Assembly: GCF_947501785.1 (NCBI RefSeq)
Contig: NZ_CANMXB010000001.1
Span: 930,001 to 994,000 of the forward strand
Length of the DNA: 64,000 nucleotides
Source of the DNA: an uncultured Litoreibacter sp.
Lineage (GTDB): Bacteria > Pseudomonadota > Alphaproteobacteria > Rhodobacterales > Rhodobacteraceae
Reading direction: 5' to 3'
Shown here piece by piece: positions 19,972 through 43,609 of the stretch. Made by a program: the position numbers and the translations under genes. The notes beneath the pieces are model-generated. The model saw only the letters and a list, made by a program, of their open reading frames with translations. It ran no database searches and was not told the DNA's origin. Position 1 is the first letter of the stretch, and each line of letters begins with the position of its first letter.

Positions 19972-20334
19972 TCAGTCCGCCAAAGGCGCCATCAGTTCCA
20001 CCTCGTCGCCGGACATGACAGAGGTGTAAAAACACACCCGTCGGTTGGTGTGGCACGCGGCCCCTGTCTGGCGCACTATCGCCAACAGGCAATCCCGGTC
20101 GCAATCCAACCGCAAATCCACCAATTCCTGCGTGTGGCCTGATGTCTCCCCCTTGATCCAAAACGCCTGCCGGGAACGCGACCAATAGGTCACCCGCCCG
20201 GTCTCTAGCGTCTTCGTCACGGCATCCGCGTTCATCCACGCCATCATCAGCACTTCACCGGTGCCTTCAGCTTGCGCGATGCACGGCACCAACCCCGCCT
20301 CGTTGTATTTCAGTGTCGCAGGGTCAAAGCGCAT
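19972..20334 (-). CDS. hisI: Phosphoribosyl-AMP cyclohydrolase
   Basis: 120 residues, third step of histidine synthesis. EVLMMAWMNADAVTKT and TGRVTYWSRSRQAFWIKGETSG are signature blocks. The metal-ligand Cys and Asp residues are seen in DLRLDCDRDCLLAIV and AACHTNRRVCFY. It stands alone as a monofunctional HisI, divergent from the NifU-like gene. Confidence 0.96.
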   Translation of the reverse strand: MRFDPATLKYNEAGLVPCIAQAEGTGEVLMMAWMNADAVTKTLETGRVTYWSRSRQAFWIKGETSGHTQELVDLRLDCDRDCLLAIVRQTGAACHTNRRVCFYTSVMSGDEVELMAPLAD

Positions 20335-20402
20335 GACGTTTCCTTTTGCATCTGCCGTGTGCCGCCTTATCTATGTCCCATGACCCTGCAAGGACAAGCG
20401 GC

Positions 20403-20834
20403 ATGAGCACTGACGGCGACCTTATCAAACTCTATTCTGGCCAGATCCTTGCACTGGCGGCAGATATCCCGCATCTCGACCGGCTCGACGCGCCCGATGC
20501 AACGGTCAAGAAACGATCGCCGCTCTGTGGGTCTACCGTGACCGTCGACATCACGATGAAGGACGGCAAGATCGACAGCTTCGGCCAGGACGTCAAAGCC
20601 TGCGCGCTTGGTCAGGCGGCGGCATCTGTCGTCGGCGCCCAAGCTGTTGGGCGCACACCCCAGGAAATTGAAACCGCCCGAGATCAGTTGAAAGCCATGC
20701 TGAAGCAGGGCGGTCCGGAACCCGATGCACCTTTTGACGGGCTCAAAGTCCTATTGCCCGCGCGCGATTACAAAAACCGACACGCCTCTATCATGCTGAC
20801 GCTCGACGCCCTGGTCGAGGCCACCTCCGCATAA
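20403..20834 (+). CDS. NifU-like iron-sulfur cluster scaffold protein
   Basis: 143 residues from the ATG at 20403. Conserved cysteines in SPLCGSTVTVDITM and QDVKACALGQAAASV match the IscU/NifU N-terminal fold that builds Fe-S clusters. A third Cys, usual in IscU near the C-terminus, is not seen, so this belongs to the divergent scaffold group often annotated next to hisI in alphaproteobacteria. A slightly longer upstream start was rejected because it overlaps the promoter region shared with hisI. Confidence 0.82.
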   Translation: MSTDGDLIKLYSGQILALAADIPHLDRLDAPDATVKKRSPLCGSTVTVDITMKDGKIDSFGQDVKACALGQAAASVVGAQAVGRTPQEIETARDQLKAMLKQGGPEPDAPFDGLKVLLPARDYKNRHASIMLTLDALVEATSA

Positions 20835-20868
20835 AAAAACCGCCGCGCTCCGGGACAGGAGGCGGCGG
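20833..20868 (-). terminator. Rho-independent terminator for the small SOS-box gene transcript
   Basis: On the minus strand a 7-bp GC stem (GCGGCGG/CCGCCGC at 20868-20862 and 20846-20840) is extended by a 4-bp CTCC/GGAG stem across a one-base bulge. It is followed by seven U residues (20839-20833). The orientation serves the minus-strand gene at 21032-21154. Confidence 0.85.
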
Positions 20869-20890
20869 CAGTCGGCTTGTCTGGAATGGT

Positions 20891-20960
20891 CTGATACGCT
20901 GGAGACCGGCGGGAAAGAGGCAAAACCGGTCCGTACAAGTTGGGGACAAGGGCGTATCAG
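20891..20960 (-). other. Structured RNA element in the 3' region of the small SOS-box gene (possible sRNA)
   Basis: CTGATACGC (20891-20899) and GCGTATCAG (20952-20960) are a perfect 9-bp inverted repeat. Nested inside is a 6-bp pair GACCGG/CCGGTC (20904-20909 and 20926-20931). With the terminator 23 nt further on, the minus-strand RNA looks like a two-stem structure plus terminator, as in small RNAs. It may be a 3' UTR or a separate sRNA; I see no clear promoter of its own. Confidence 0.35.
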
Positions 20961-21031
20961 GTGGTTGATCCATCACGGGACAGAGACGGACAACCCTTCC
21001 AAGGGCATCAGACAGCAGGCAGTTATCCGAG

Positions 21032-21154
21032 TTACATTAATTGCGGCAGATACAAGGTCACGGTCATCATCACGCCGATCGCAGCAATTCCAGCGGCATC
21101 CTGCATCAGCGTGGCGCGCGAGTTGGACAGTATCTTTTTCACATCTGCGATCAT
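21032..21154 (-). CDS. 40-residue putative membrane peptide with a LexA-box promoter
   Basis: The ATG at 21154 follows a near-perfect ribosome site (GAGGAGGT, spacing 7). The 40-codon frame starts MIADVKKILSNSRATL, a basic amphipathic stretch, and residues about 20-38 form one hydrophobic helix ending in LYLPQLM. An alphaproteobacterial LexA box (GAAC-N7-GAAC) lies about 70 bp upstream at 21225-21239, and a strong terminator follows at 20833-20868. It is downstream of ligA-recG on the same strand. In Caulobacter the SOS-induced division inhibitor SidA is a similarly tiny one-helix inner-membrane protein behind the same kind of box. A parallel role here is inference; I see no sequence match to SidA. 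Confidence 0.72.
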   Translation of the reverse strand: MIADVKKILSNSRATLMQDAAGIAAIGVMMTVTLYLPQLM

Positions 21155-21224
21155 GGGCGGTGACCTCCTCAAGTCTTGTTCTTTTTGTTGTCACTTTGTT
21201 CTCATTTTCGTTAACCGAAGTAAA

Positions 21225-21239
21225 GAACTTTTTGAGAAC
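21225..21239 (-). promoter_or_regulatory. LexA (SOS) box, GAAC-N7-GAAC
   Basis: GAAC at 21225-21228 and 21236-21239 are separated by exactly 7 nt (GTTC-N7-GTTC on the minus strand), the established LexA site of Rhodobacter and Caulobacter. Further GAAC/GTTC half-sites cluster at 21246 and 21255, and a weaker GTTG-N7-GTTC lies at 21187-21201. The site is 40 bp past recG and upstream of the 40-codon gene. Confidence 0.7.
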
Positions 21240-21278
21240 ATTTGCGAACAAAATGTTCCTCTGGCGACGAAAGCATCG

Positions 21279-23369
21279 CTAACCAACTGAAATCAAACGG
21301 ATCGCCCGCTCTTGCTCCATCAGCCAAAGAAGAACGCGCGCCGCCTGCCCGCGCGGACTGGTTAACGAAGGGTCAGTCGTCAATAGCGCCCGCGCATCAC
21401 TTTGCGCCACAGCCATCAACGCGGTTTGCGTCTCCAGATTGGCAATACGAAAGCGTGGCAGTCCTGATTGCGCGGTCCCGATCAAATCCCCTGCCCCGCG
21501 CATTTCCAGATCTTCCTCCGAGATACGGAACCCGTCCTCCGTCTCGCGCAAAATGTTCAGCCGCCGCTTCGCGGTCTCGCTCAACGGGTCCTGGAACATC
21601 AGCAAACAGGTCGAGGCGCCATCACCCCGTCCAACACGCCCCCGCAATTGGTGCAGCTGTGCCAGGCCGAACCCCTCAGCGCGTTCGATCACCATGATCG
21701 TGGCGTTGGGCACGTTTACCCCCACCTCGATCACAGTGGTGGCCACCAGCACTTTGGTCTCTCCCGAGACGAACTTTGCCATGGCGGCGTCCTTGTCGGC
21801 GGGCGGCATTTGCCCATGCACCAAACCAACCACACCGTCGCCCAATGCCGCGCGCAGGCGTTTGAACCGTTCCTCTGCTGCCGTCTTGTCGGATACCTCG
21901 CTTTCCTCAACCAGCGGGCAAACCCAATAGGCCTGCCTTCTCTCGTCGATGGCATTGCGGAGCTTGCCCACCACTTCGTCCATGCGATTGGTGGAGACCG
22001 TAGCCGTCGTCACCGGCTTCCGTCCGGGCGGTTTTTCATCCAACACCGACACATCCATGTCGCCATATTGTGCCAAAGCCAGCGAGCGTGGGATTGGCGT
22101 TGCTGTCATCACCAATACGTCGACCGACGTCCCCTTGGCGCCAAGCTCCATGCGCTGCGACACGCCAAAGCGGTGCTGTTCATCCACGACGGCCAGCCGC
22201 AAATCCTTGAAAAACACGTCCTTCTGGAACACCGCGTGGGTGCCCACCAGCACATGGATGTCGCCTGCGGCCAAGGCCTCCAGCTTCGCGCGCCGTTCCG
22301 CCCCTTTGTCCCGGCCCGTCAACAACGCAATCACGATGCCCGCGTCTTCGGCCAATGGCTCAAGGCTCTCCATATGCTGGCGCGCCAAAATCTCGGTTGG
22401 GGCCATCAGCACGCCCTGCCCGCCGGCCTCCACCACCGTCAGCAGCGCCATCAAGGCCACCAAGGTTTTGCCCGAGCCGACATCGCCTTGCAGCAGCCGG
22501 TTCATCCTTGTCTTCGTGCCCAAATCATCCGCAATCTCGGCAATCGCCCGTGTCTGCGCGCCGGTCGGTGTGTAGGGAAATGCCGCCAAGACCTTCGATT
22601 GCAATTTCCCGGTGGCCACGCTGGCAATGCCCGGCTTCGCCCGCACCGAGGCCCGCGCCAATGACAGCGTCAGTTGATGGGCAAACATCTCGTCATAGGC
22701 CAGCCTTTCCCGCACCGGAGCCGTCGGAGCCATGTCTTTCAAGCTGGTCGGCGCATGCGCCCCATGAATGGCGTCCCGAAACGCGGGCCACTTCGCCTGT
22801 TTGATTTGCGAGGGATCAATCCATTCGTCAAATTCCGGCACCATCGCCAGAGCCGCCCGCGCCGCACGGTACATCACCTTCTGCGAGATGCCTTGGGTCA
22901 ACGGATACACCGGCTCAAATTCCGGAATGCTGTCCCCGTCGCTCACGGGCACCATATGATCTGGATGCACCATCTGCGCCATGTTGTCGAACATTTCAAC
23001 TTTGCCTGAGATCACCCGCCGTTGCCCCGTAGGCAATTGTTTTTGCAGGTAATCCCCGCGGGCGTGAAAGAACACCAACCGAAATTCGGTCTGGGCGTCA
23101 CGCACATGCACATGGTAGGGCCGACCCTTTTGGCGGGCGGGCACATGCATTCCGATCTCAACCTCGACCGTCACTGTACCAGGCAAGATCGCGTCCCTGA
23201 TTGATGCTTTGCGTGCCCGGTCAATCCCCGAGCCCGGCAACGTCAACAACAGGTCCTTGGGTTTTTCGATATGCAGCTGCTCGAACAGCGTTGCGGTCTT
23301 GGGGCCCACACCATCCAGCTTAGTCAAATCCGCAAAAAGCGGGAATAGGATTTCGGGGCGGCCGGACAC
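21279..23369 (-). CDS. recG: ATP-dependent DNA helicase RecG
   Basis: 696 residues from a GTG at 23369 placed directly after the ligA stop. It reverses stalled forks and branch-migrates Holliday junctions. The N-terminal wedge domain (about 1-250) precedes helicase motif I LLQGDVGSGKT, motif II as DEQHRFGVSQR, motif III MTATPIPRSLAL, and VIEVGVNVPNATIMVIERAE with QLRGRVGRG in the second RecA lobe. Length and motif order are those of full RecG. The zero-gap junction with ligA implies one transcript. Confidence 0.97.
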   Translation of the reverse strand: MSGRPEILFPLFADLTKLDGVGPKTATLFEQLHIEKPKDLLLTLPGSGIDRARKASIRDAILPGTVTVEVEIGMHVPARQKGRPYHVHVRDAQTEFRLVFFHARGDYLQKQLPTGQRRVISGKVEMFDNMAQMVHPDHMVPVSDGDSIPEFEPVYPLTQGISQKVMYRAARAALAMVPEFDEWIDPSQIKQAKWPAFRDAIHGAHAPTSLKDMAPTAPVRERLAYDEMFAHQLTLSLARASVRAKPGIASVATGKLQSKVLAAFPYTPTGAQTRAIAEIADDLGTKTRMNRLLQGDVGSGKTLVALMALLTVVEAGGQGVLMAPTEILARQHMESLEPLAEDAGIVIALLTGRDKGAERRAKLEALAAGDIHVLVGTHAVFQKDVFFKDLRLAVVDEQHRFGVSQRMELGAKGTSVDVLVMTATPIPRSLALAQYGDMDVSVLDEKPPGRKPVTTATVSTNRMDEVVGKLRNAIDERRQAYWVCPLVEESEVSDKTAAEERFKRLRAALGDGVVGLVHGQMPPADKDAAMAKFVSGETKVLVATTVIEVGVNVPNATIMVIERAEGFGLAQLHQLRGRVGRGDGASTCLLMFQDPLSETAKRRLNILRETEDGFRISEEDLEMRGAGDLIGTAQSGLPRFRIANLETQTALMAVAQSDARALLTTDPSLTSPRGQAARVLLWLMEQERAIRLISVG

Positions 23370-42583: not shown

Positions 42584-43609
42584 ATGAAACGCATCACCAC
42601 AGCCGCAGTTGTTTTGGCCGCAACAACCTCGATGGCATCTGCAGGCGGTATCGACCGCTCAGGTCAATCGCTCCGCGCTCTTTTCGAAGACGGCGGCGAA
42701 ACGGGCAACTATGCCGAGCTCTCCTATTCTTTCGCCGACCCTACCGCCAACGGCAGCTTGGGCAGCGATGACGGCCTCGACGCCTATTCGCAGTTTGGTC
42801 TGGCATACAAAACGAACCTCACGGATCAGCTTAGCTTCGCTCTGATCCTGGACACGCCTTTTGCGGCGAACGTGACCTACGGCGCTGGCCCCTTCGCTGG
42901 CGGTACCGCGCAAATCGACAGCACCGCGTTCACAGGTGTCTTGCGCTACAAGTTCAATAACGGCTTCAGCGTACATGGCGGCCTACGTCTGCAAGAACTG
43001 GGTGGCACAATTGTGTCTATCGGTTTGCTGCAAGCCGAATCCGACCTTGAGCTTGGTTACGTCGCCGGTGTTGCTTACGAACGCCCCGACATCGCCCTTC
43101 GCGTAGCGCTGACATATAACAGCGAAATTGACCACGGGCTGACCGGCACCGAAAATGTGGTCAACCCAACAGCATTCACGGTGACAACGCCGGCCAGCTG
43201 GAACCTCGACTTCCAAACCGGCATCGCTGAAAACACGTTGTTGTTCGGTTCGGTTCGCTACGTGGAATGGGCTGGCTTTAACCTGACCACACCCGGTCTG
43301 GGCACCTATGCAAACTTCACTGCAAATACGACATCCTACACATTGGGCGTTGGACGCAAATTCAACGAAAATTGGTCTGGCGCGGTGACCATTGGTTACG
43401 AATCCCCAACAACACGTCCGACGACAACGCCTTTGGCGCCAACCGCCGGTTTCCGCAGCATCGGCCTCGGCGCGACCTACACGCAAGGCAACACCAAGAT
43501 TTCTGGCGGTGTTACCTACGGCAAGCTGGGCGATCAGAGCTTCGGGCCAGTGACTTGGACGGATAACGACGTCTTCGGTGCAGGCGTTCGCGTCGGGTTC
43601 AACTTCTAA
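42584..43609 (+). CDS. FadL-family outer-membrane transport protein
   Basis: 341 residues. Signal peptide MKRITTAAVVLAATTSMASA, then GGIDRSGQSLRALFEDGGET, the N-terminal plug start typical of FadL-like proteins, followed by alternating amphipathic beta strands and a final GVRVGFNF ending in Phe, as outer-membrane barrels do. It moves hydrophobic compounds across the outer membrane. It is somewhat short for FadL. A strong terminator follows, so it is monocistronic. Confidence 0.85.
   Translation: MKRITTAAVVLAATTSMASAGGIDRSGQSLRALFEDGGETGNYAELSYSFADPTANGSLGSDDGLDAYSQFGLAYKTNLTDQLSFALILDTPFAANVTYGAGPFAGGTAQIDSTAFTGVLRYKFNNGFSVHGGLRLQELGGTIVSIGLLQAESDLELGYVAGVAYERPDIALRVALTYNSEIDHGLTGTENVVNPTAFTVTTPASWNLDFQTGIAENTLLFGSVRYVEWAGFNLTTPGLGTYANFTANTTSYTLGVGRKFNENWSGAVTIGYESPTTRPTTTPLAPTAGFRSIGLGATYTQGNTKISGGVTYGKLGDQSFGPVTWTDNDVFGAGVRVGFNF

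Follow-up and report, generated by a model that had tools for sequence, protein, structure and literature searches.

The LexA regulon of alphaproteobacteria is marked by the operator GTTC-N7-GTTC in the promoter region. In Caulobacter, SidA, an SOS-induced peptide of 29 amino acids, binds FtsW (PMC4211646), and deletion of lexA causes filamentation because sidA is then constitutively expressed (PMC12700426); a SidA-like peptide can thus be the main SOS division brake. In Klebsiella, DinR is derived from the 3' end of the LexA-controlled dinI mRNA and represses ftsZ; through its 3' end, the message of a small LexA-controlled protein can thus silence ftsZ (PMC10907235). Small SOS peptides of another kind are described as well: TisB depolarizes the inner membrane (PMC8145889), and DinQ is a toxic peptide with a single membrane helix among the SOS-regulated genes of E. 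coli (PMC3567139).

How the Rhodobacteraceae (Ruegeria, Phaeobacter, Leisingera, Sulfitobacter; Paracoccus is placed by NCBI in the Paracoccaceae) stop dividing after DNA damage seems not to have been described. Among the top-ranked open-licence papers we found no account of such an arrest in this family and, going by titles and the beginnings of abstracts, neither the gene nor the RNA analyzed here. A study predicting the LexA regulon of alphaproteobacteria, Rhodobacter sphaeroides and Paracoccus denitrificans among them, reports recG as LexA-regulated in some species (PMC3323433); the available portions of its text, of the D. shibae study (PMC6473078) and of the Caulobacter HigX study (PMC13384398) do not mention the present open reading frame (ORF). 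The family is large and comprises marine and soil bacteria, in which the peptide and the RNA described below may together pause division during DNA repair, and the locus offers a single, syntenic and testable candidate in cultured model organisms.

The unit lies behind recG on the minus strand of the window, i.e. the whole 64-kb stretch of DNA that was analyzed (Table 1). The original prediction had placed there a LexA box, a near-perfect ribosome site, a 40-codon ORF with one membrane helix and a strong terminator, and each of these is present at the coordinates given. Its description as one complete small transcription unit overlooked a conserved RNA at the 3' end, which starts 9 nt past the stop codon of the peptide and ends at the terminator. 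The peptide gene has ligA, recG, an Fe-S scaffold gene and hisI as neighbors (names as given in a Paracoccus record). A simple consensus scan did not list the terminator, whose hairpin the fold shows, nor any sigma-70-like promoter on the minus strand. By eye, almost every one of 28 orthologues inspected has a purine-rich site ahead of its start codon. The anatomy of the unit (gene, box, membrane segment, RNA fold and co-linearity) is well supported by the sequence comparisons that follow, and the unit very probably represents a genuine SOS locus. From the co-linearity we infer that peptide and RNA would be carried on one LexA-controlled transcript.

Table 1. Features of the recG-linked unit, in window coordinates.
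Feature	Position	Strand	Basis
LexA box GTTCTCAAAAAGTTC (exact GTTC-N7-GTTC)	21225..21239	-	Read in sequence; kept in 133/134 distinct loci and 79/80 named loci
Third GTTC half-site, lying 6 nt 5' of the box (putative tandem operator)	21246..21249	-	GTTC at N6 in 120/134 loci
Leader block ATGAGAACAAA followed by CAAC (GAAC-N7-CAAC)	21187..21205	-	Kept across loci
Shine-Dalgarno sequence GAGGAGGT	21163..21170	-	Read in sequence
40-codon ORF, predicted single-pass inner-membrane peptide MIADVKKILSNSRATLMQDAAGIAAIGVMMTVTLYLPQLM (40 aa)	21032..21154	-	Orthologues family-wide
Structured RNA element, divergent member of the family-wide element	20870..21022	-	Folds; model R2 match of 18.2 bits
Intrinsic terminator, hairpin and T-run	20833..20868	-	Visible in fold
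recG, upstream neighbor; stop codon ~125 nt before the peptide start	21279..23369	-	

A search with the single peptide matched 32 of 61 relatives at E≤1, and the 30 loci returned from it comprised 28 recG-linked orthologues and two chance matches (L029 and L030). With a profile of 26 orthologues, 239 of the 246 family genomes were matched at the loose limit of E≤1, 189 of them at E≤1e-6. The class-wide profile search gave matches at E≤0.01 in 8 of 389 genomes: six belong to the family, the window's own among them, and the remaining two are partial matches within long frames in other families. No convincing relative of the peptide was thus found by profile in the 389 class genomes outside the family, and the 27 recG loci examined outside it, where a single unrelated-looking hydrophobic ORF was seen, gave none either; a gene shared with other alphaproteobacterial families was set aside on these grounds.

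The loci compared below were taken from the single-peptide and profile searches together with 80 further family hits that were fetched. After removal of four chance loci (L029, L030, L065, L066) 142 remained, 134 of them distinct; being largely better-scoring hits, they are not a random sample. A set of 80 named loci was found with a narrower alignment, and these are not independent since most come from Ruegeria and its relatives. Absence of the ORF from relatives had been named beforehand as a possible refutation of the original prediction; orthologues were found across the family, and the expected synteny was borne out, recG lying upstream in the same orientation at 141 of 142 loci and at all 80 named ones. 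Every one of the 134 distinct loci starts with ATG, and the encoded peptides have 39 (11 loci), 40 (115), 41 (1) or 42 (7) residues. This comparison establishes the 40-residue ORF as a real gene that has orthologues throughout the Rhodobacteraceae-type family, directly after recG, and the unit appears, as far as sampled, in one family only.

Across 17 sequences of the window's genus, changes at codon positions 1, 2 and 3 number 1402, 771 and 2868 in the ORF versus 1694, 1722 and 1509 in the leader, and pN/pS is 0.33. An ORF evolving free of selection is rejected by the codon-position bias and this ratio, which indicate that the peptide is under purifying selection. One strong hydrophobic segment is predicted in 142 of 142 loci; the first 18 residues carry a mean net charge of +1.15, and a K, R, D or E beyond position 22 occurs at 1 of the 142. 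Among the 115 peptides of 40 residues, D19, G22 and L34 do not vary, and 113 retain P37. Charge and conserved residues would be in keeping with a single-pass peptide, oriented N-in, that has a specific partner. Searches of Pfam, PHROG and PDB assigned the peptide to no family (for PDB, no hit at E≤5): the matches obtained were weak, to Pfam in 2 of 26 members, to PHROG in 1 of 26 and two to NCBIfam, far below cut-off.

An exact LexA box taken by itself is not significant in 64 kb, where two were found against 2.36 expected by chance, and it is conservation across loci that sets the box at 21225-21239 apart. Upstream of the orthologues, where the original prediction had expected it, an exact box lies within 180 nt of the ORF in 133 of 134 distinct loci (141 of 142 before collapsing), versus 0.28 expected from the other exact boxes within the same loci, and in 0 of 27 recG loci outside the family; a chance box is rejected by these counts. 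The distance from box start to ATG is 66-110 nt (median 80; 133 distinct loci). The exceptions are L135 among the distinct loci and L304 among the named ones. The other exact LexA-type box of the window, GAACCCGACGCGAAC at 43586-43600, has a GC-rich center, unlike the boxes conserved elsewhere, and is probably a chance occurrence.

In the whole genome, the strict form GTTCNYAWNAAGTTC occurs twice, here and in or beside an ORF reading like gyrB. AT-centered boxes of looser patterns stand ahead of uvrA-, tag- and imuA-like genes of this genome and of a gene for a radical-SAM-like protein; these names, like gyrB, were taken from reading the translations and not by searching families. Overall, the looser patterns show no enrichment over their reversed controls (28 vs 41 and 21 vs 19). 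Two sites are recorded here as separate observations. A strong AT-centered box (L195, G000:C1:1069035-1069049) stands 27 nt ahead of a radical-SAM-like ORF, a candidate SOS gene. The lexA gene (L308, G000:C1:675673-675687) has one exact box with a GC-rich center, ~54 nt from the matched domain, which is possibly an autoregulatory site or a chance match.

Downstream of the box, the leader carries GAGAACAA in 124 of 134 loci and GAAC-N7-SAAC in 119 of 134, and most of ATGAGAACAAA reaches 1.6-1.9 bits per position, so that this block is nearly as conserved as the LexA box. A second imperfect operator or a promoter/start region would explain it. The tandem arrangement of half-sites suggests tight repression, as would suit a product that is harmful if leaky.

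Blocks of conservation run through the ~150 nt from the peptide stop to the terminator. Without the terminator, the 188 distinct elements have a median fold z-score of -1.96 (88 below -2, 32 below -3 and 10 above 0); among the genus elements listed, 12 of 17 have a z-score weaker than -2. RNAalifold on three raw MAFFT alignments returned only the terminator and a short stem, nothing, or one inner arm; a structure drawn by hand on 12 sequences (model R1) and covariance models were therefore used. R1 matched 58 of 100 loci, all by coordinates just 3' of the peptide on the same strand and none elsewhere in 284 kb; a few of these 58 are sequences of the model. In the resulting alignment, both sides have changed in each of the 31 pairs (335 cells vs 84.5 in shuffles) and 90.9% of cells are paired vs 68.8% in shuffles, counts that lean towards structure because the alignment was fitted to the model. 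On the R2 alignment, which is also model-fitted, RNAalifold itself predicted 20 pairs, each showing double changes.

Model R2, built from the 58 sequences matched by R1, recovered 78 of those 100 loci, including 20 that R1 had not matched. At 70 loci outside the model it found 29 matches (21 among 31 that had a peptide hit, 8 among 39 located via recG alone), all downstream of the peptide or of recG. A search of 80 whole genomes under strict filters, with at most 41 candidates scored per genome, matched 26 once each and missed 54, including the window's own. Of these 26 genomes, 19 had supplied sequences to the model and 7 had not; 25 of the matches adjoin the listed place of the peptide, and the place of G116 is absent from the listing. 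With no more than one match per genome under these settings, a multi-copy or mobile element is not supported. Outside the family, 26 of 27 recG loci were without an R2 match at E≤1.

Each element contains on average 4.77 YUGYC motifs, terminator included, vs 1.53 in mononucleotide shuffles (119 elements). Individual motifs vary more, with an exact UGCCUC in 53 of the 119 elements and YUGCCUGU in 63. Rfam gave no match at E≤1 in window positions 20300-21700. At nine related loci it gave five sub-threshold matches, none at the gathering score and none on the element (Ysr141 four times, ~1.2 kb from the peptide on the other strand, and twister-sister once), and 6S or another Rfam RNA was rejected. 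By these alignments, the element is a covarying multi-hairpin RNA with repeated YUGYC motifs, and it seems to represent a new structured RNA, conserved and controlled by LexA.

The window's own copy consists of a closing stem, a hairpin with a CUGUCCC loop and a long arm with the unpaired motifs UUGUCCCC and UUGCCUC. Its fold has a z-score of -3.96 with the terminator and -2.5 without it. In the multi-locus searches with R1 and R2 the window stayed below the reporting limit (E≤0.05 not reached); R2 run on the window alone placed its match correctly, scoring 18.2 bits (E=0.00058 in 601 nt). In 16 sequences of the genus the inner arm covaries, with double changes in 6 of 7 pairs, and the closing stem says little there because it is almost invariant; the two together have 92.8% of cells paired vs 86.3% in shuffles. 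Most of 17 genus sequences favor the CUGUCCC hairpin, with a mean z of -1.91 relative to mononucleotide-shuffled flanks and a single positive value. Given the R2 match on the window alone, the covarying inner arm and the favored hairpin, we read the window RNA as a divergent member of the family with the same unpaired motifs.

The more distant cases were approached through recG. The divergent set holds 44 family genomes without a profile hit or with a best hit weaker than ~1e-4; 13 genomes at 1e-6 to 1e-4 lie outside it. recG was located in 39 of the 44 (18/22 and 21/22). Downstream of these 39 genes, an exact box followed by a short hydrophobic ORF was seen in 26 cases and a hydrophobic membrane ORF in 33. 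The diverged relatives thus appear to retain position, box and membrane segment, and the unit is not universal, since 6 of the 39 recG loci are without a membrane ORF and 13 without an exact box. In Paracoccus ferrooxidans and P. denitrificans (L346 from 2796, L347 from 2823) there are two overlapping exact LexA boxes each, and a 31-residue ORF, MTRESLSDLLGTVAISVTAIILFSLPSILAA in both records, keeps D-x-x-G and L-P and is close in size to SidA. It is unannotated in the P. ferrooxidans record, whose gene table is incomplete, and the P. denitrificans stretch carries no annotation at all. R2 found no RNA match at E≤1 at the two Paracoccus loci. At another locus, L177, the box downstream of recG is degenerate (GTTCGCATAATGATC) and the membrane ORF and RNA element are kept; loss of LexA control is possible there.

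Our best explanation, to which we give an even chance, is a LexA-repressed two-part SOS transcript whose peptide delays division and whose 3' RNA is probably regulatory. The SOS gene, set between recG and a terminator and equipped with a control region of its own, would be repressed by LexA, and DNA damage, through LexA cleavage, would release one short transcript. Its 5' part would yield the ~40-residue peptide, inserted in the inner membrane with the short net-positive N-terminus presumably inside. D19-x-x-G22 at the membrane entry and L34-x-x-P37 at the outer end would most likely dock on a late divisome membrane protein, perhaps of the FtsW, FtsI or FtsN type, and constriction would be delayed until repair. 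The 3' part would fold into an RNA that displays several YUGYC motifs and probably serves, released or retained, as a regulatory RNA. We infer damage induction, topology, target, division delay and RNA function, and for the unit as a division checkpoint the odds are about even. In favor are the conservation of the box, the tandem half-site, boxes of this kind ahead of the uvrA-, tag- and imuA-like genes, purifying selection, the membrane segment, the narrow length range and constant ATG start, the diverged relatives and the two Paracoccus records, RNA covariation and the precedents of SidA and DinR; the lack of a listed promoter, the divergent RNA of the window, the unit's not being universal and family searches without a relative count against it.

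The size of the peptide, the LexA box and the single membrane helix would equally suit a membrane-damaging peptide of the TisB/DinQ type, leading through depolarization to dormancy or persistence rather than to a division block. We consider this unlikely: the fixed chromosomal place and the invariant D19, G22 and L34 of 115 peptides point to a specific partner, and complementarity between leader and 3' element is no stronger within a locus than between loci (own -31.7 vs crossed -32.6 kcal/mol, p=0.94, 119 loci), so that hok-like fold-back control is not supported by this comparison. In another reading, the peptide would be a small subunit that regulates, under DNA damage, some other process of the inner membrane (envelope, protease, DNA uptake or gene transfer agents); a conserved interface would suit any membrane partner. 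Predicted LexA sites at gene transfer agent, pilus and recombination genes of D. shibae, in the portion of that study available (PMC6473078), are in line with it, but ligA, recG, the Fe-S scaffold gene and hisI as neighbors point to no such process, and we hold this reading to be just as unlikely.

The strong covariation and synteny of the RNA raise the converse view that a LexA-controlled sRNA is the main product and the peptide a minor or leader product. This we regard as improbable, because the peptide is under purifying selection and the two Paracoccus loci keep peptide and boxes without an R2 match at E≤1. It is somewhat doubtful, though compatible with the preferred account of the peptide, that the RNA is only a stabilizing 3' UTR with no targets in trans. 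Its position, from just behind the stop codon to the terminator in the window, accords with such a role, for which the repeated YUGYC motifs would not be needed. The RNA would act in trans or stabilize the message, and by analogy with Klebsiella DinR it is likely a 3'-derived regulator; it sits 3'-terminal on the LexA-boxed unit, as in the DinR type if co-linearity here means co-transcription.

Of the known systems, TisB and DinQ of E. coli resemble the present gene as SOS-controlled small membrane peptides and differ in their toxin-antitoxin settings with antisense RNAs, whereas the present gene is fixed beside recG and, on the scope of one consensus promoter scan, is not known to have an antisense RNA gene. 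DidA of Caulobacter crescentus is likewise a small single-helix membrane division inhibitor induced by DNA damage, but it has 71 residues, is SOS-independent and driven by DriD (PMC4211646), whereas the present gene carries a LexA box.

SidA of C. crescentus is a very small inner-membrane peptide under SOS/LexA control, as the present product, by its box and predicted helix, would be. It has 29 residues vs 40 here, and the excerpt available to us mentions no 3' RNA for it (PMC4211646). Profile A1 found no convincing match outside the family in 389 class genomes, a search in which short peptides limit sensitivity and Caulobacter's inclusion is uncertain. The original prediction of a Rhodobacterales counterpart of SidA therefore holds in part: a LexA-boxed single-pass membrane peptide does occur family-wide at a fixed place after recG, and action like that of SidA is our leading interpretation, but SidA was compared by description, and we do not file the gene as SidA.

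DinR of Klebsiella pneumoniae comes from a LexA-controlled short mRNA that encodes a small protein and has a regulatory 3' RNA part (PMC10907235), the arrangement proposed for the unit. DinI modulates RecA filaments, whereas the protein here is a membrane peptide, and the RNA here is, in contrast, conserved and multi-branched across the whole family. More tentatively, at rather less than an even chance, we propose a family-wide two-armed SOS checkpoint on one tiny transcript, in which the peptide would stall the divisome and the YUGYC RNA would silence mRNAs in trans or sponge a regulator. If true, this would be a counterpart of SulA and DinR packed into one short transcript behind recG.
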